From: a bacterium
GTDB taxonomy: Bacteria > Myxococcota_A > Bradymonadia > UBA7976 > UBA1532
NCBI GenBank assembly: GCA_030426085.1
Contig: JAUHYW010000019.1
Span: 62,001-126,000 of the forward strand
DNA length: 64,000 nt
Direction of reading: 5' to 3'
In this document: piece after piece, positions 2 to 62,770 of the stretch
Position numbering within the stretch: position 1 is the first letter of the stretch
How the letters are laid out: the number at the start of each line of letters is the position of its first letter
Made by a program: the position numbers and the translations under genes
Notes under the pieces: generated by a model
Told to the model about the DNA's origin: nothing
What the model saw: only the letters and a program-made list of their open reading frames with translations
The model's database searches: none

Positions 2-3000
2 CAGGGTGCGAACACGTCCAAGGATGGCAAGGGCGGAGGCTCGATCATCGTCGAGCTCGATACATCCAACCGGGCCCGTTCGTTCGACGAGTCGGGTTCG
101 TTCTTCGGCAGCGAGATCACCCGGGTGCTCGAGATCCTCGAGCAGGACGTGAAGTCCCTCCCCGATGATCAGGCCTCCATCGACATCGAGGAGCAGATGC
201 TCAACGCCCGCGATGTCATCTGCGTCTATGGCTCACGGGGCGCAGGCAAGACCAGCTTCCTGCGGTCGGTCGGCCATCGCCTGAGAGTAGAGCGGAAAGA
301 TCTGCACGTCCTGCCTCTGCTCGATCCGACCCTGATCGAGCGCAACGAGGTGTTTCTGGCCACGATCGTCAGCAATGTGCTGGCCGCCATCGAGAAGAGA
401 ACCCGGCGGGGCAGCGGCTTCTCGCCGCTGGCTGACGACGTCCTCGCCCACAACGAGCGCTTGAGGGAGACGCTCGACGCGCTCGCCCGCGCTTTCCGTC
501 TGCTGGCCCCCGGGGGGATCGCGTCGAGCTGGGGCGAAGCGATGGCCGATCCACACCTCTTCGCCCACGAGGTCTTGCAGGACGCCGCCAGCGGCCGCGA
601 GCTGGCCGTGCGATTCCACACGTTCGTCGCCGAGGCGGCCCGGGCGATCGGTGTCCGGGCATTCGTGCAGCCGCTCGACGATGTCGACACCGCCTATGGG
701 CAGGGCTGGCATGTGCTCGAGACCACCCGCAAGTACCTCTCGACCCGGATCTTCATCCCGATGATCTCGGGCGATCTCGACCTGTATCGCATGCTGGTCC
801 GCTCGAACCAGATCGAGCACGTACGAGGGCTGATGCAATTCGAGCAGGCCGTCGGAGGCGGCGAGGCCTCCCGGGCCGATCTGCGACGCTATCAGCGGCA
901 GATCGACCAGCTCGAAGAGCAATACCTGCTCAAGGTGATGCCCGCCGAGCGTCGGGTGCGCCTGCGCTCGGTCCGGGAGCGGGTCTGGGACAAGGCGAGC
1001 AATGGCGAAGAGTTCCTCAGCCTCGACTCGGGCCGGCTCGCTGCCGATAAAGGGCGGCGGCGCCCGCTCAGCGGGGTGTTCGCCGAGTATTGCGAGGATG
1101 TCTTCGGCTGGCGCCGGGCCGGCACACCGTCGACCGCGGTGCTCGACCATCGGGAGTGGGCCGTCGCCCGGCTGCTGCCGGCTCGGACCCGGTCGCTGAT
1201 CAGCCTCTTCCAGGCGATGGTCGACTGGGTCGGGGCACCCGAAGAGAGCCGGCAGCGGCCCGTCGATGGCCTGGCCCGCGTCTTCCGCCAGGCGCTGGTG
1301 ACCCGCGACGTCGACGATACGCTGCTCGACGCGCTCGTGCAGGGGCACGGTCTGGGTCGCCTCGGGGCCTGGGCTCTGCGCTGGCGGGGTGAGGTGGCGC
1401 AGCTCCACCTGCTCGACCCCGAGCGGGTCCGCGATCTGGTCGACGCCGAGGAGTGGACCCAGACCGTGCTGACGCTCAACGCCGCGCTCTTCCAGCGGTG
1501 GCGGCGCGATCCGGGATCTGCGCTGCGCTTCGGGGCCAAGGTGGTCCAGCCGGCGCTGTTCGCTGACGCCGAGGGTGACGGCACGGCCATCCGGCGGGTC
1601 ATCAACGCGATCGCGTTGGAGGCCAACGAGCCCGCATATCGCACCGCGACGCGGCAGCAGGCGCTCATCGTCGGCGAGGGCAAAGACCCCCAGGGGCGCT
1701 CGCCGGGCCTCATCTGGCTGCCTCGGCGCACGGTCAAGGATCACAAGCAACGTCTGCTGCAGGCGTGGATGCGCCATCTCAAGGGTCGCGGCCTCGACCC
1801 GAGTGACAAGGCCTCCAAGCAGGACTCGACCGATCTGCTGCCGCTCTTGTCGGCGGTCGCGAAGTCGGTCGCCCAGGCAGAGAAAGACGCGAAGAAGTCG
1901 CTCACGGACACGGACAAACAGGAGATGGCGAAGGCTCTCTTCGTCAGCTGGACGAGCTTTCGAAACAAGGCGGGCGCAAACCTGCAATTGCTGCTCGATT
2001 GGTTCGGGATGACTCTGACGCTGACCGGGGGCTCTCAGTTGACCTACCTCAGCGCAGACCGCGGCCTCGCCGCGCTCGGAGACCTGCTCGAGCGGGCTTC
2101 CCGGGTCGACCGTGACGCCCGGTCCAGCGTCTTGGAGGCCGCGATCAGGCGCTTCATCCGCGAGGCGCTGCGCGACGCGACCGCCTTCGCTCCCTCGCTG
2201 AAGTCGGACAATGTACAACCGGTCGAATCGACGGGCGACGAGGACGACGAGCTGCTGGAGGCCGAGGAGTTCCCCGAAGAGGACCATGGCCTGCGTGAGG
2301 CTCTCGTGGAGTGGACCGTGGCCGTTGCCAGCGGCTCGGGCGACAGCCTCTGCGCGCTGCCGCCTTACATCTTCGCCCGGGTCGTCACCCGCTGGTGGGC
2401 CAACGTGGAGAAGCTGAACGATGCCGACACGCTCGCCTTCCGCACGGCGGGGGGGATGCTGCACCGCTGGCTGGCCGCCTTCCTACACGCACACCTCATC
2501 GAGGAGGTGAAGCTGCTCGGTGGGGGCCCGAAGAGCTTCCGCACGAATGCGACCGATGTGGGGCTGGAGACGGACAGCTTCGAGAAGAACCTGCAAGCGC
2601 TCCTGTCGAGCGATGAGGGCAGCGGGGCATCCGCGCTGGCGACCCGGCCGGTGGCGACCGCCATCTGGATGGCCTGTCCACTGATTCGGGCCTGCCTCGC
2701 GCCCGGTTTGAGGCAGCAGGTCCTCGAGGTCTCTCGGGCGGTCCTCGGCACCGATGGAGGTGCGTGGGCGGACTATCTCACGGATGGGCAGGGGGGCACG
2801 CGGGCGAGCGTTTTCGAAGGGCGACTCGACCGGCCTCAACTCAAGATCCACGACGATGTCCAGGTTCTGCTGACCGCGCTCTACGCCCCCGAAGCCCGAG
2901 AGGGCGATCGGGTGCACGCGAGCACCTACAAGAGCGGCCGAGCCCGCCTCGCCGCGCTCTCGGGGCTCGACTTCGACAACATCGACCAGAGCAAGTCCAA

Positions 3001-3004
3001 CTGA
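2..3004 (+). CDS. rdrA: RADAR ATPase RdrA (5' end outside window)
   Basis: This is probably the ATPase subunit of the RADAR anti-phage system. The reading frame is open and protein-like from base 2, so the GTG at 125 is probably internal and the true start lies upstream of the window; 1,000 residues are visible. Counting from that GTG, a Walker A loop (GSRGAGKTS, Lys42) lies at residues 36-44 and a Walker B-like segment (LDDVD) at 184-188. The rest is a long, mainly helical region with no motif I recognise. In the known system RdrA is a large ATPase that forms rings and docks on the RdrB deaminase cage. The call rests on size, the P-loop and, above all, the adjacent RdrB-like gene 21 bases downstream. 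GC bias looks milder than in genes to the right, which fits a transferred island. Without the neighbour I would call it only a P-loop NTPase. Confidence 0.83.
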   Translation, partial: QGANTSKDGKGGGSIIVELDTSNRARSFDESGSFFGSEITRVLEILEQDVKSLPDDQASIDIEEQMLNARDVICVYGSRGAGKTSFLRSVGHRLRVERKDLHVLPLLDPTLIERNEVFLATIVSNVLAAIEKRTRRGSGFSPLADDVLAHNERLRETLDALARAFRLLAPGGIASSWGEAMADPHLFAHEVLQDAASGRELAVRFHTFVAEAARAIGVRAFVQPLDDVDTAYGQGWHVLETTRKYLSTRIFIPMISGDLDLYRMLVRSNQIEHVRGLMQFEQAVGGGEASRADLRRYQRQIDQLEEQYLLKVMPAERRVRLRSVRERVWDKASNGEEFLSLDSGRLAADKGRRRPLSGVFAEYCEDVFGWRRAGTPSTAVLDHREWAVARLLPARTRSLISLFQAMVDWVGAPEESRQRPVDGLARVFRQALVTRDVDDTLLDALVQGHGLGRLGAWALRWRGEVAQLHLLDPERVRDLVDAEEWTQTVLTLNAALFQRWRRDPGSALRFGAKVVQPALFADAEGDGTAIRRVINAIALEANEPAYRTATRQQALIVGEGKDPQGRSPGLIWLPRRTVKDHKQRLLQAWMRHLKGRGLDPSDKASKQDSTDLLPLLSAVAKSVAQAEKDAKKSLTDTDKQEMAKALFVSWTSFRNKAGANLQLLLDWFGMTLTLTGGSQLTYLSADRGLAALGDLLERASRVDRDARSSVLEAAIRRFIREALRDATAFAPSLKSDNVQPVESTGDEDDELLEAEEFPEEDHGLREALVEWTVAVASGSGDSLCALPPYIFARVVTRWWANVEKLNDADTLAFRTAGGMLHRWLAAFLHAHLIEEVKLLGGGPKSFRTNATDVGLETDSFEKNLQALLSSDEGSGASALATRPVATAIWMACPLIRACLAPGLRQQVLEVSRAVLGTDGGAWADYLTDGQGGTRASVFEGRLDRPQLKIHDDVQVLLTALYAPEAREGDRVHASTYKSGRARLAALSGLDFDNIDQSKSN

Positions 3005-3025
3005 CACCGCAGGCCGAGCCACCCG

Positions 3026-5656
3026 ATGCCGTTGCACCTCCCCAGCCGCCTCGCGGTCCTCACGCTCAGCGCGCCTACGCTGATCGACACCATCCGCGAC
3101 GGGGTCACCGGCCACCGCCCGTGGGACGCCCGGTGGTCGGACATCATCCGCCATGGGGTCTCGGCCGCCGCCGAGCGCGAGCTGGGCACGGTGCCGCCGC
3201 ACCAGATCCGGGCCCACCTGCGAGGTCTGGCCGACGGGACCGCGATCGGCTGGTCGGCCGCCGAGGCCGACGCCGGGGCCTACGCCCACCCCCGTGAGCC
3301 CGATCGCGACGGCGAGAAGCCCCTGCTGGCGCGGGCGCTCGTCCTGCTCGCCGACCGCCTCCTGGTCTGGAATCATGGCCACTTCCGCCTGCGGGCGGCG
3401 ACGCTGCTCGAGTTCCAGCAGCTCGTCGGTGAGGTGGCCCCCGACCAGCTCCTGATGCTGGCCGCCGCCGCCGAGCGCAGCGTGAGCGGGCACCTCGTGC
3501 CCCGACCCCGGCGGCTGGACCGGCGCACGCTCGACGCCATCCTCACCGCGCCGCTGATCCCGTCGGTCGATCTGCCGATCGTCGATGCGCTCGTCGGTCG
3601 GGGGCTGGCCGAGGTCCATCGGCACGTCGGGGGCAGCGCACAGCCGGCCCTGCTGTGGCTCGACCTCCTGCGCGATCCGACGGCGTTGGCCCGGCGCATC
3701 GCCCGCGAGCGCGACATCGACCCCGAGCGACGACGTGAGCTCCTGCTGCACAGCGCGCGGCTGCGAGACGCGCGTCACCTGCGGGCGCTGATCGCGACGG
3801 CGTTGCTGCGCTTGCGAGAGGTCTCTGGCCAGGGGTGGCAGATCTGGTCCCGCGATGTCTGGCGCACGCTGGCGACCTTCGGCGCGCCGGTCCGCTATGG
3901 CACCACCCCCGGTGAGAGCGTGACGCTGGATCCAGCCGAGCGGCTGCTTCATCGCGACCTGCCCTCTCCAGCCAGTGAGCGGGCGCTGCTCTACCATGCC
4001 TTCCGGCAGGTGTTGCAGCCCCCGCAGGCGGTCCGGAGACAGCAGTCCTTCCCCCGAGATGCCTTCGTCCTGGCGCTGCATACCTATCTCATCCAGCAGA
4101 ATCACTTCACCCGGACCCTCGTGCAGCCGGCGGCCGGTCAGGAGGGGCTCGAGCGCTTCGTCGTCGACTACTACCGCTCGCCGCTCGCCGGCGCCCGGGG
4201 CGATGTGTCGGGGGTGTTGCAGCAGGCGTCGGACACCGGGCGGGTGCGCTGGCTGGAGGGCCGGATGGGTCCCCGTCGAGCCGCTTCCAAGGTGAGCCGG
4301 TTGCTCGCGGATACCCGACAGCTCGCCGACGGGAGGCGGGTATACGCGCGGCGGGTGACGCCGGTCCCCTGTGATCGACCCCGGGGTCGGGCACCGGCGG
4401 TGGGGGTGGTCCTGCACTTCATCCGCCAGCCGGAGCGGGCGCCATCGGAGAGTCGGGCCGGGTCGGTCTTCGGCCTGCCCGCTCGGTTCGCCCGGCTGCG
4501 AGCCCGTCTGTGGCGGGAGGCGTTCGAGGTCATGCGCCTCGATGCCTTCCGTCATCTGGCTCCATACCTGGTGGGCCTCGACGTGGCCGGCAGCGAGATC
4601 GCCACCCCGGTCGAGGTCTTCGCCCCGATGATCCGGTTCTTGCGTTCGCCCTTCCGGCGGCGACGTCACGCCGAGGCGTCGGTGGGGCCCCTGCCGCTCG
4701 TGCCGCCGCTGGCGCTGACCTGTCACGCGGGCGAAGACTTCCGTCACCTGCTGTCGGGGATGCGGGCGGTCGACGAGACGCTGCGCTTCCTCGACATGCG
4801 CCGGGGCGACCGGGTGGGCCACGCGCTGGCGCTGGGGGTCGAGCCCGAGCGCTGGGCCGCCCGGGTGGGGTCGGTGGTCTCGATGCCGCTCGAATCCCGG
4901 GTCGACGATCTGGTGTGGTTCCTCGATCGGCTCGCCCGGCACCCCGAGCTGGCCCATGTCGCCCGTCAGGCCGAGCGGGAGCTGAGCGGATTGGCCCGCC
5001 GACTCTACGGGGAGATCCCGGCCGAAGTGTTCGGTGACGGTCGGTGGGAGTTGCTCTATCGAGCGTGGTGTTGGCGGCGATGCGATCCGGCCAACGCAGG
5101 CGAGCGGCCCGCCGGCCTGCCTTCGGATCTGCGGCTCTTCCTACACGCCGAGCGCGACGAGAGCCTGGCGGCCTTCGGGGGCGACGCCCGCGCGCTGTGG
5201 ATGGCCCACCAGCGCGACGTGACGGTGCGCCGCCGGGGCCCTGCGCTCATCCAGGTGCCGGTGCGCGCCGATTGGCTGCCGGCGATCCGCCGCATTCAGG
5301 TCGATCTGCTGGGGTCGCTGGTCCGGCGCAACATCGCCATCGAGATCAACCCCAGTTCGAACCTCGCGATCGGGCCCTTCGACGATCTCACCGAGCACCC
5401 CGTCTTTCGCTGGTTCCCGCCCGGGGCGGCCCGCGACCGGGCCCACCCGTTCATCGTGGTCGGCAGCGACGACCCGGGCATCTTCGCCACCGAGCTGCTG
5501 CATGAGTATGCCTACCTCGCCCGAGCGGCCGAGGAGCGGGGCGCCGCGCCCCGACAGGTGGCCGACTGGCTGGAGGATCTGCGGCAGACCAGCGTGATGT
5601 TCAGCTTCCTGCCCGGGACCGGGCAGCTCGGGGGATCGAGCGGCCTCATCCGCTGA
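3026..5656 (+). CDS. rdrB: RADAR adenosine deaminase RdrB
   Basis: This is a large (876-residue) divergent adenosine deaminase. It keeps the full metal-dependent deaminase motif set: HRH at residues 198-200 (two metal ligands, in HRHVGGS), HAGED at 567-571 (third His ligand and the catalytic Glu570), RVGH at 596-599 (His599), EINPSSN at 773-779, and SDDP at 814-817 (Asp ligand and active-site Asp). Housekeeping adenosine deaminases are about 330-350 residues; the long N-terminal part and the insert between the first and second motifs are typical of RdrB. Known RADAR systems deaminate adenosine in nucleotides or RNA during phage infection, with RdrB as a dodecameric cage and RdrA bound to it. 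The ATG follows the RdrA stop by 21 bases, so the two are almost certainly co-transcribed. No small membrane accessory gene is visible downstream. Confidence 0.92.
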   Translation: MPLHLPSRLAVLTLSAPTLIDTIRDGVTGHRPWDARWSDIIRHGVSAAAERELGTVPPHQIRAHLRGLADGTAIGWSAAEADAGAYAHPREPDRDGEKPLLARALVLLADRLLVWNHGHFRLRAATLLEFQQLVGEVAPDQLLMLAAAAERSVSGHLVPRPRRLDRRTLDAILTAPLIPSVDLPIVDALVGRGLAEVHRHVGGSAQPALLWLDLLRDPTALARRIARERDIDPERRRELLLHSARLRDARHLRALIATALLRLREVSGQGWQIWSRDVWRTLATFGAPVRYGTTPGESVTLDPAERLLHRDLPSPASERALLYHAFRQVLQPPQAVRRQQSFPRDAFVLALHTYLIQQNHFTRTLVQPAAGQEGLERFVVDYYRSPLAGARGDVSGVLQQASDTGRVRWLEGRMGPRRAASKVSRLLADTRQLADGRRVYARRVTPVPCDRPRGRAPAVGVVLHFIRQPERAPSESRAGSVFGLPARFARLRARLWREAFEVMRLDAFRHLAPYLVGLDVAGSEIATPVEVFAPMIRFLRSPFRRRRHAEASVGPLPLVPPLALTCHAGEDFRHLLSGMRAVDETLRFLDMRRGDRVGHALALGVEPERWAARVGSVVSMPLESRVDDLVWFLDRLARHPELAHVARQAERELSGLARRLYGEIPAEVFGDGRWELLYRAWCWRRCDPANAGERPAGLPSDLRLFLHAERDESLAAFGGDARALWMAHQRDVTVRRRGPALIQVPVRADWLPAIRRIQVDLLGSLVRRNIAIEINPSSNLAIGPFDDLTEHPVFRWFPPGAARDRAHPFIVVGSDDPGIFATELLHEYAYLARAAEERGAAPRQVADWLEDLRQTSVMFSFLPGTGQLGGSSGLIR

Positions 5657-5718
5657 GCGACCCGTCGCCGTTGCGTCCCCCGGGCGAGTGGGCCACCATG
5701 CCCACTGGAGGACTCACC

Positions 5719-7257
5719 GTGGTCACCGACGCCCCTGTCGATCCGACGCTCGACGCCCGCTACAGCGTGGAAGAGGAGATCGGGCGGGGCGGCTACGGCG
5801 CGGTCTATCGGGCGCGGCAGCGGGCGACCGGGCAGTACGTGGCGGTGAAGATGGTGCCCGAGCAGCCGCGCCACGCGCGGGCCTGGGAGCGCTTCGGGCG
5901 GGAGGCGCGGCTGTGCGGCGCGCTGCATCACCCGCACATCGTGCGGCTGATCGACGCCCACCAGGGCGAGGCGACGGCGTGGCTGGTCTTCGAGTGGGTG
6001 CCGGGGCGTGATCTGGCCCAGGTTCTCGCCCGCGAGGGGCGGCTGGAGCCGGCGGCGGCGGTCCGGCTGATGGGGCAGGTGCTCGACGCGCTGGCCGCGG
6101 CGCACGCCCTGGGCATCGTGCATCGCGACATCAAGCCGGCCAACATCATGATCGCCCGGACCGGGGCCCGGCAGAACGCGCAGGTGCTCGACTTCGGTAT
6201 CGGCACGCTCGCCGAAGGCCGGGATACGCTGGAGTTCGCCCGCATCACCGGTACCGGCGACGCGCTGGGCACGCCGGCCTACGCCGCGCCGGAGCAGCTC
6301 CGGGGCGAGGCGGCGACCCAGCGGGCGGACATCTATGCCTGGGCGCTGACCTTCGTCGAGTGCGTGACCGGTGAGCGGGTGATCTCGGCCCGCACGATGC
6401 CCCACGTCCTGCTGCAGCAGCTCGGCCCTCAGCCCATCGAGCTGCCGCCGTCGCTGCGGGTCCATCGGCTGGCGCCCGTGCTCCGGCGGGCGCTGCACAA
6501 AGATCCGTCCCGGCGCGCGGTCACCGCCGAGTCGCTGCTGCGGGCCCTCGACTCGCTGGGGCCGGCCGAGATCGCGGCCCTCGCCCCCCAGCCGAAGCCG
6601 CCCACCGACGGGGTCTGGTCCGAGGCGACGCTGGCGCCGCCGACCGGGAGCCGCTCGGGTGAGGGCCCGGGTGCGTCGGCAGAGCCGTGGCAGCCGCTCA
6701 CGGCCGATGACCGCGCCTTCCTGGTCCGGGTGCCGCTGATGCGCCGCCTCACCCCGACGGAGCGCGATCGGATCGCCGAGGCGATGCACCGCCGGGCGCT
6801 GGAGGCCGATGAGGTGCTGGTCGAGCTGGGCGAGGATGGCGTCGATGCCTTCATCGTGCGCAAGGGCGAGTTGACCCTGGAGCTGCCGCTCGAGGGCCAC
6901 GAGCCGCGGGTCGTCGCCCGCATGGGGCCGGGCACCGTCGTCGGCGAGGTGTGCCTCGTCGAGCCGGCCCCCCGCACGCTGCGCATCCGCGCCGCCGGCC
7001 CGGCCGAGGTGCTGGTGATCGACGGGCCCCGCTTCGGCGCGCTGTGCGACGCCGATGATCCCGGGGTGCACAAGCTGATGCGGTTCATCGCGCTGACGTT
7101 GTGCGATCGGCTGCGCCAGACCACCGGGCGCTTGCAGAGCGCGCTGCGGGGCGACGCGCCGTCGGCGTCGGCGGACACCGTGACCGGTCTGGTGGCGCCC
7201 ATCGCCACCGATCGACCCTGGGATCGTCTCAAGCGGCTCTTCGTGAGGTCCGGCTGA
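5719..7257 (+). CDS. Ser/Thr protein kinase fused to a cyclic-nucleotide-binding domain
   Basis: This is a Hanks-type kinase of 512 residues. A glycine loop (IGRGGYGAVY) lies near residue 20, followed by Lys44 in VAVKM, His135-Arg-Asp in HRDIKPANI, Asp158-Phe-Gly, and an APE-like AAPEQL. After a Pro-rich linker, residues about 340-475 form a CRP-type cyclic-nucleotide-binding domain. No membrane segment is seen, so it should be cytoplasmic. I chose GTG 5719 because a perfect GGAGG lies at 5707-5711, seven bases upstream; an in-frame ATG at 5698 lacks such a site. Its stop overlaps the next gene, another cyclic-nucleotide-binding domain. The kinase is 62 bases past rdrB and has the GC style of the chromosome to the right, so I infer it borders the defence module and is not part of it. 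Whether the domain binds cAMP, another nucleotide or nothing cannot be read here. Confidence 0.88.
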   Translation: MVTDAPVDPTLDARYSVEEEIGRGGYGAVYRARQRATGQYVAVKMVPEQPRHARAWERFGREARLCGALHHPHIVRLIDAHQGEATAWLVFEWVPGRDLAQVLAREGRLEPAAAVRLMGQVLDALAAAHALGIVHRDIKPANIMIARTGARQNAQVLDFGIGTLAEGRDTLEFARITGTGDALGTPAYAAPEQLRGEAATQRADIYAWALTFVECVTGERVISARTMPHVLLQQLGPQPIELPPSLRVHRLAPVLRRALHKDPSRRAVTAESLLRALDSLGPAEIAALAPQPKPPTDGVWSEATLAPPTGSRSGEGPGASAEPWQPLTADDRAFLVRVPLMRRLTPTERDRIAEAMHRRALEADEVLVELGEDGVDAFIVRKGELTLELPLEGHEPRVVARMGPGTVVGEVCLVEPAPRTLRIRAAGPAEVLVIDGPRFGALCDADDPGVHKLMRFIALTLCDRLRQTTGRLQSALRGDAPSASADTVTGLVAPIATDRPWDRLKRLFVRSG

Positions 7258-61874: not shown

Positions 61875-62770
61875 CAGAACCGCCCCTGCCACCAGACCGC
61901 CGCCCCGCCGGGCATCGCCCCCGGCACCAGGGCCGTCGACTCCTCGGGCGCGTCGGCGGCGAGATACAGGATGGCGCCGGTGAGCAGCAGCGCCGCCCCC
62001 GCCCCGCCGACGATCAGCGCCGACTCGCCGAAGTCGTCCTTGCGCTGCCGATTGCGGGTCTGCTCCCGGGCGGCGTCGGCCACCCCGTCGGGATCGGTCA
62101 CCGGATCGGCCTCGGACAGCGCCGCGTCGGCCATCGCCCAGCGGACCCCGAAGTAGCCCCCCGCGGCGAGGCCCACCGCCCCGGCCCCGATGAGGTAGCC
62201 GCCCACCGTCGCCAGCCCCGACGGCGCGGACGGCGGCGGGGCGACGCCCTCGCAGCGCAGGCTCAGATCACCCCCGGCCATCGCCGGCACCGTCACCTGC
62301 CAGTACAGCCCTTCCAGGCGGGGCTCGAGCCGCTCGCCGCGCAGGGTCACCACCGGCTCGGGGCACACGTTGGCCTGGGGCAGCGCCAGCTCAACCGGGC
62401 CGGCCTCGGTCTTCTCCCGCATGCGGGAGACGATGCCCCACGACTCGGTCAGCGGCTCGATGTAGATCGACTCGCCCGCGCCCCGCTCGGCCATCAACGA
62501 GATGAAGGTCAGCGCGGCCTGCATCGCCTCCTTCGGCTGGCCGGCCGCCTCGTAGCTGCGGGCCATGTGGAACCGGAAGATGGGCTCCTGCTTGGCCGCC
62601 CAGGCCTGCTCGAGGAAGCGGACCGCGCCCTCGTAGTCCCCCGCCTTGTAGGCCGCCCGGGCCTGCTTGTAAGCCGCCTCGGCCTGATCGACCTGCGCCG
62701 CGGCGGGGCCGGCGAGCAGCGGCAGGCACAGCGCCAGCCAGACCAGCGGGCGTCGGGTGGGTCGGGTCAA
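61874..62770 (-). CDS. Exported TPR-like protein with two C-terminal helices
   Basis: A 298-residue protein. TTG 62770 was chosen because GAGGAG lies seven bases upstream and a signal peptide follows directly (LVWLALCLPLLAGPAAA). A helical repeat region with TPR character (AAYKQARAAYKAGDYEGAVRFLEQA) spans about 25-95. A beta-rich part with two Cys follows, then two membrane-like helices (VGGYLIGAGAVGLAAGGYF and ALIVGGAGAALLLTGAILYL). This tail layout is common in myxobacterial PEGA/TPR envelope proteins. The protein may scaffold the MopE-like lipoprotein encoded in the overlapping gene. Confidence 0.78.
   Translation of the reverse strand: MTRPTRRPLVWLALCLPLLAGPAAAQVDQAEAAYKQARAAYKAGDYEGAVRFLEQAWAAKQEPIFRFHMARSYEAAGQPKEAMQAALTFISLMAERGAGESIYIEPLTESWGIVSRMREKTEAGPVELALPQANVCPEPVVTLRGERLEPRLEGLYWQVTVPAMAGGDLSLRCEGVAPPPSAPSGLATVGGYLIGAGAVGLAAGGYFGVRWAMADAALSEADPVTDPDGVADAAREQTRNRQRKDDFGESALIVGGAGAALLLTGAILYLAADAPEESTALVPGAMPGGAAVWWQGRF

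Follow-up and report, generated by a model that had tools for sequence, protein, structure and literature searches.

A probable, highly divergent standalone RADAR (rdrAB) operon in a myxobacterium-like genome whose family carries further RADAR-like loci

Does a large ATPase gene followed at once by the gene of an over-long adenosine deaminase encode the two-component antiphage system RADAR (RdrA-RdrB), and if so, how closely does it follow the Escherichia coli type? The question is raised by the first two genes of a 64,000-nucleotide stretch of bacterial DNA (hereafter the window; G000:C54:62001-126000 in the source genome), which an earlier note had read from the letters as RADAR in a myxobacterium-like genome, a description of the genome that fits. 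The frames and motifs that it had listed, an ATPase gene and, 21 bases on, an 876-residue protein with deaminase motifs, were all recovered where it had placed them. Both genes lie on the + strand, rdrA at positions 2..3004 and rdrB at 3026..5656; the rdrA stop codon (3002-3004) is separated by 21 bases from the rdrB ATG at 3026, and the rdrB stop codon occupies 5654-5656. The cut left edge is a window boundary and not a contig end, and the RdrA frame runs on in the genome to an ATG 17 bases left of base 1 (contig position 61984), which is preceded by AGGAGG; RdrA therefore has 1006 aa, 1000 of them inside the window. The large opposite-strand frames over the two genes are spurious, a consequence of the high G+C content; the + strand is called coding because of homology and codon-position G+C, GC3 on this strand being 0.86 and 0.88 for rdrA and rdrB and 0.91-0.98 for most neighbouring genes. 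That both frames are real is shown by their strong family matches, their GC3, and a gene order shared with relatives from many phyla.

The first gene was assigned as the AAA+ ATPase of RADAR from NCBIfam, PADLOC, PDB and Foldseek matches and from the upstream sequence. Its best profile matches are the RdrA models of NCBIfam (1.6e-38) and PADLOC (6.7e-24), and among solved structures the sole strong match is E. coli RdrA (4.1e-29; PDB 8hr7/8fnt). The ATPase core is readily followed along the + strand: the Walker A motif GSRGAGKT (230..253) aligns to E. coli G81, K82, and T83, the Walker B motif PLDDVDT (671..691) to D221 and D222, the sensor 1 aspartate (773..775) to D253, and the sensor 2 arginine (1190..1192), which is invariant in 21 RdrA proteins, to R377. 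An AlphaFold model built from an alignment of relatives has moderate confidence (pLDDT 70.6, pTM 0.71); in Foldseek it matches the E. coli RdrA ring at 3.7e-23 with TM values of 0.53-0.61 over 924-1019 columns, nearly the whole chain. A profile of the 21 RdrA relatives aligns its positions 3-893 to residues 6-938 of E. coli RdrA. Given the moderate confidence of the model, it is the predicted fold and the profile jointly that indicate the presence of the RdrA-specific C-terminal domain.

The second gene was assigned from NCBIfam, PADLOC, PDB, and Foldseek matches as encoding the RADAR adenosine deaminase, over-long at 876 aa; the best profile matches are to the RdrB models of NCBIfam (3.6e-69) and PADLOC (1e-48). 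E. coli RdrB is the sole strong match among solved structures (7.3e-42; PDB 8fnw/8fnv), ordinary deaminases following from 0.002. Four motifs on the + strand make up the active site: HRH (3617..3625), whose metal-binding H198 and H200 align to E. coli H152/H154 and are invariant in 81 RdrB proteins; HAGE (4724..4735), with the metal ligand H567 and the catalytic E570 aligned to H498/E501; RVGH (4811..4822), with H599 aligned to H530; and SDDP (5465..5476), with D816 and with D815, the metal-ligand position of adenosine deaminases, invariant in the same 81 proteins. The AlphaFold model, again from an alignment of relatives (pLDDT 83.1, pTM 0.90), matches E. coli RdrB at 1.6e-29 with TM values of 0.68-0.70 over 902-917 columns, whereas ordinary deaminases reach only 0.22-0.29. 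As judged from this whole-chain match of the predicted fold, RdrB carries insertions in its deaminase core, as in the over-long deaminases of RADAR.

The earlier note had left room for a different outcome, in which the second protein would match housekeeping enzymes alone: a salvage adenosine/AMP deaminase lying by chance beside an unrelated ATPase. Pfam A_deaminase does match RdrB over the last catalytic block, but ordinary deaminase models score 1e-9 or weaker against 3.6e-69 for the RdrB model, the short models match the C-terminal block and never the full length, and the only whole-length fold match is to RdrB. Moreover, the partner ATPase is itself RdrA, and distant relatives have retained the two genes together. 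The best matches of both genes refute the chance pairing, which we regard as exceedingly improbable. The profile searches, structure predictions (both models match their E. coli counterparts along almost the whole length), and sequence comparisons all rank RADAR first by a wide margin, and adjacent RdrA ATPase and RdrB deaminase genes, the criterion for RADAR, are found here. We therefore consider, at a probability of about 0.93, that these two genes make up a complete rdrAB operon, a standalone RADAR of the E. coli type, which by homology would work through an E. coli-like mechanism.

The conservation behind this reading is uneven. The E. coli residues that form the Walker A and B motifs and the two sensors, bind metal, or take part in catalysis have been named (PMC9994260), and every catalytic or ATPase residue so named has its counterpart here (GKT, DD, D, and R in RdrA; H198, H200, H567, E570, and H599 in RdrB). 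Of the E. coli assembly-interface residues, only some are conserved: the crown positions K150/E151/R162 are N/E/R here, and the alignment lacks most of the Glu triad at the three-fold interface of RdrB (interface 3). Crown residues were tried as a test of membership and dropped as uninformative; since they vary throughout the family, they argue neither for nor against RADAR. Both proteins score far below the NCBIfam equivalog cut-offs (NF041743/NF041744 models; 132.7 of 600 bits for RdrA, 234.2 of 800 bits for RdrB), and the RdrB cut-off is passed by no genome of the class searched; such a cut-off is a naming threshold without meaning as a biological feature.

Could this be a decayed or silent copy? 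The GC3 of rdrAB, lower than that of most neighbours as in recently acquired DNA, is in keeping with that idea, but both frames are full length, rdrA has a good ribosome-binding site, and the catalytic residues are intact, so that decay appears very doubtful. For the intact operon, the lower GC3 and the grouping of RdrB with proteins of other phyla point to horizontal acquisition, which is likely on these sequence grounds. In the tree, RdrB clusters with RdrBs adjoining E. coli-type RdrA genes (SH-aLRT 97-99), its companions coming from Bacteroidota, Thermodesulfobacteriota, Pseudomonadota, and a Heimdallarchaeota bin, and the RdrA-RdrB order is the same in relatives from several phyla. The nearest RdrB relatives, from Geomesophilobacter sediminis (L043), the Bacteroidetes MAG SZAS-11 (L041), and a Heimdallarchaeota MAG (L042), form one clade with the window protein (SH-aLRT 99) and likewise have an RdrA gene just upstream, whereas they belong to other phyla and share about 31-38% identity. 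No match to RADAR was found in phage records, and plasmids gave seven distant matches (24-31%).

The Heimdallarchaeota pair lies on a 6140-base contig (JAMOVR010000291.1), with RdrA split over two frames. The contig resembles other contigs of its bin in GC (35%) and tetranucleotides, the two measures compared; according to PMC13327615, RADAR is absent from archaeal genomes, and this 6-kb MAG contig may be misbinned.

The surroundings of the operon also bear on its type. Upstream of rdrA lies a divergent gene for a 965-residue protein with MopE-type motifs, and further upstream a PilT-like ATPase, a short-chain dehydrogenase, and response regulators were read from the sequences. Accessory genes on the left, on which the earlier note could not pronounce, were looked for in the sequence before base 1 and none was found; downstream there is likewise none, as it had said. 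Reading of both flanks and profile scans of the main neighbours revealed no SLATT- or Csx27-like rdrC/rdrD, which assigns the locus to the standalone rdrAB subtype, a subtype that needs no accessory gene (PMC7699616). A larger operon would result if the protein kinase with a cyclic-nucleotide-binding domain encoded at 5698-7257 on the + strand, 41 bases after rdrB, were a regulatory part of RADAR here; it shares the strand of rdrB across a short gap and is matched by the kinase models of PADLOC defence systems. However, relatives contain around 50 to over 100 matches to similar kinases per genome, which makes the PADLOC matches generic, and no such kinase was observed next to the bacterial family's other RADAR loci. 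In the sister species, the gene after the closest kinase relative is related to the one that follows the kinase here (55% identity), and no RADAR gene turned up in the 9.5 kb preceding that kinase relative. In view of this arrangement and the many paralogues, we rejected the kinase as a RADAR component; such a role has very little in its favour, and the kinase is probably unrelated. The RADAR operon itself thus looks like a lone insert with ordinary genes around it. Synteny with the sister species did not yield a clean empty site, since the relatives of the kinase and of the aminotransferase are on separate contigs there.

By analogy with the E. coli system, RdrA would form a heptameric AAA+ ring, the C-terminal half of which may sense infection, and this ring would dock onto a dodecameric shell of RdrB subunits. 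Upon phage infection, RdrB would deaminate ATP/dATP to ITP/dITP under the control of the RdrA ring; the altered nucleotide pool would be poisoned and phage growth would stop, perhaps at the cost of the infected cell. For E. coli RADAR, the ATP-to-ITP chemistry, assembly, and defence have been shown (PMC9994260), the activator being listed there as unknown. At the present locus, two genes, their order, conserved catalytic residues, and matching folds are directly seen, and assembly, trigger, substrate, and defence are inferred from E. coli. The relevant target might instead be RNA, which RdrA would load into RdrB for A-to-I editing of transcripts. Such editing was proposed in the first description of RADAR, as summarised in PMC7699616, and the names of PDB entries 8hra and 8hrb refer to RdrA rings in an RNA-loading state; against it, according to PMC9994260, ATP and dATP are deaminated efficiently, RNA is not edited in vitro, and the A-to-G signature in vivo is minor. 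Sequence alone cannot separate the two targets, and we consider RNA the improbable one.

RADAR is rare, occurring in 135 of 22,818 complete genomes (0.59%) according to the DefenseFinder figure quoted in PMC13327615. Within the family of the source genome (f1, G000-G012), 7 of the 13 sampled genomes have RdrB-like frames of 728-1046 codons, at two or three loci in some of them, and the 44 genomes searched in the rest of the class have none; short deaminase matches are left out of this count by length, as is one 1119-codon frame of G012 with a match of 35 residues only. These sequence counts, from a small sample with many draft genomes, suggest that the family is unusually rich in RADAR-like systems. 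Two of its RADAR-like pairs have another gene directly upstream, encoding a NACHT/pentapeptide-repeat protein in one case (L025 in G006, 1722-5090) and a type III restriction-like helicase-nuclease in the other (L020 in G010, 462-3758).

A second, more divergent RADAR-like locus is located on contig 132 of the source genome (about 29.6-43.7 kb; loci L127 and L019). It comprises, in order, a 2574-codon frame ending in an AAA domain, a gene for a 468-residue protein with GERGSGFS at the Walker A position, without the lysine, a 931-codon RdrA-like frame, and an 843-codon RdrB-like frame that keeps the deaminase motifs. The ATPase is called RdrA-like from its position, its P-loop, and its alignment to the counterpart in G003, and not from a significant RdrA profile match. 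The same four-gene order is present in G003 (L022/L023). A profile built from the two small proteins encoded by gene 2 and run over 284 genomes of the phylum gave one further match, in G130 (L132), where all four genes again occur in this order, a blind recovery that makes chance unlikely; two weak matches in G061 and G044, with no RdrA or RdrB nearby, were dropped. Pfam gave no match for the 468-residue protein, or for the giant protein outside its AAA region, and PADLOC nothing meaningful for either. The four-gene layout was not found in the libraries and literature searched, an absence that is no proof of its being undescribed, and with three cases any function given to it is a guess. Tentatively, and with odds slightly against it, we propose that the family is a centre of RADAR diversity and that the source genome also carries a previously undescribed four-gene RADAR-like system, in which the giant AAA protein and the small ATPase-like protein would provide an added sensing layer.

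The operon in the window is thus a well-supported, very divergent member of a rare system. Its surroundings weigh more, with RdrB-like genes in about half of the family's sampled genomes, and the recurring four-gene layout may help to reveal how RADAR is activated.

Among known systems, the CARF-adenosine deaminase Cad1 of type III CRISPR shares the adenosine deaminase core and gives a weak profile match to RdrB, but its CARF domain was not found here and the fold match is far weaker (TM 0.22-0.25). E. coli RADAR (RdrA, 8fnt/8hr7; RdrB, 8fnv/8fnw) has the same two component proteins, catalytic residues, and whole-chain folds. The two differ in sequence (16-21% identity in structural alignments), in part of the interface residues, and in the length of RdrB (about 799 aa in E. 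coli, 876 aa here), and their comparison tells the residues that the chemistry fixes from those that drift.
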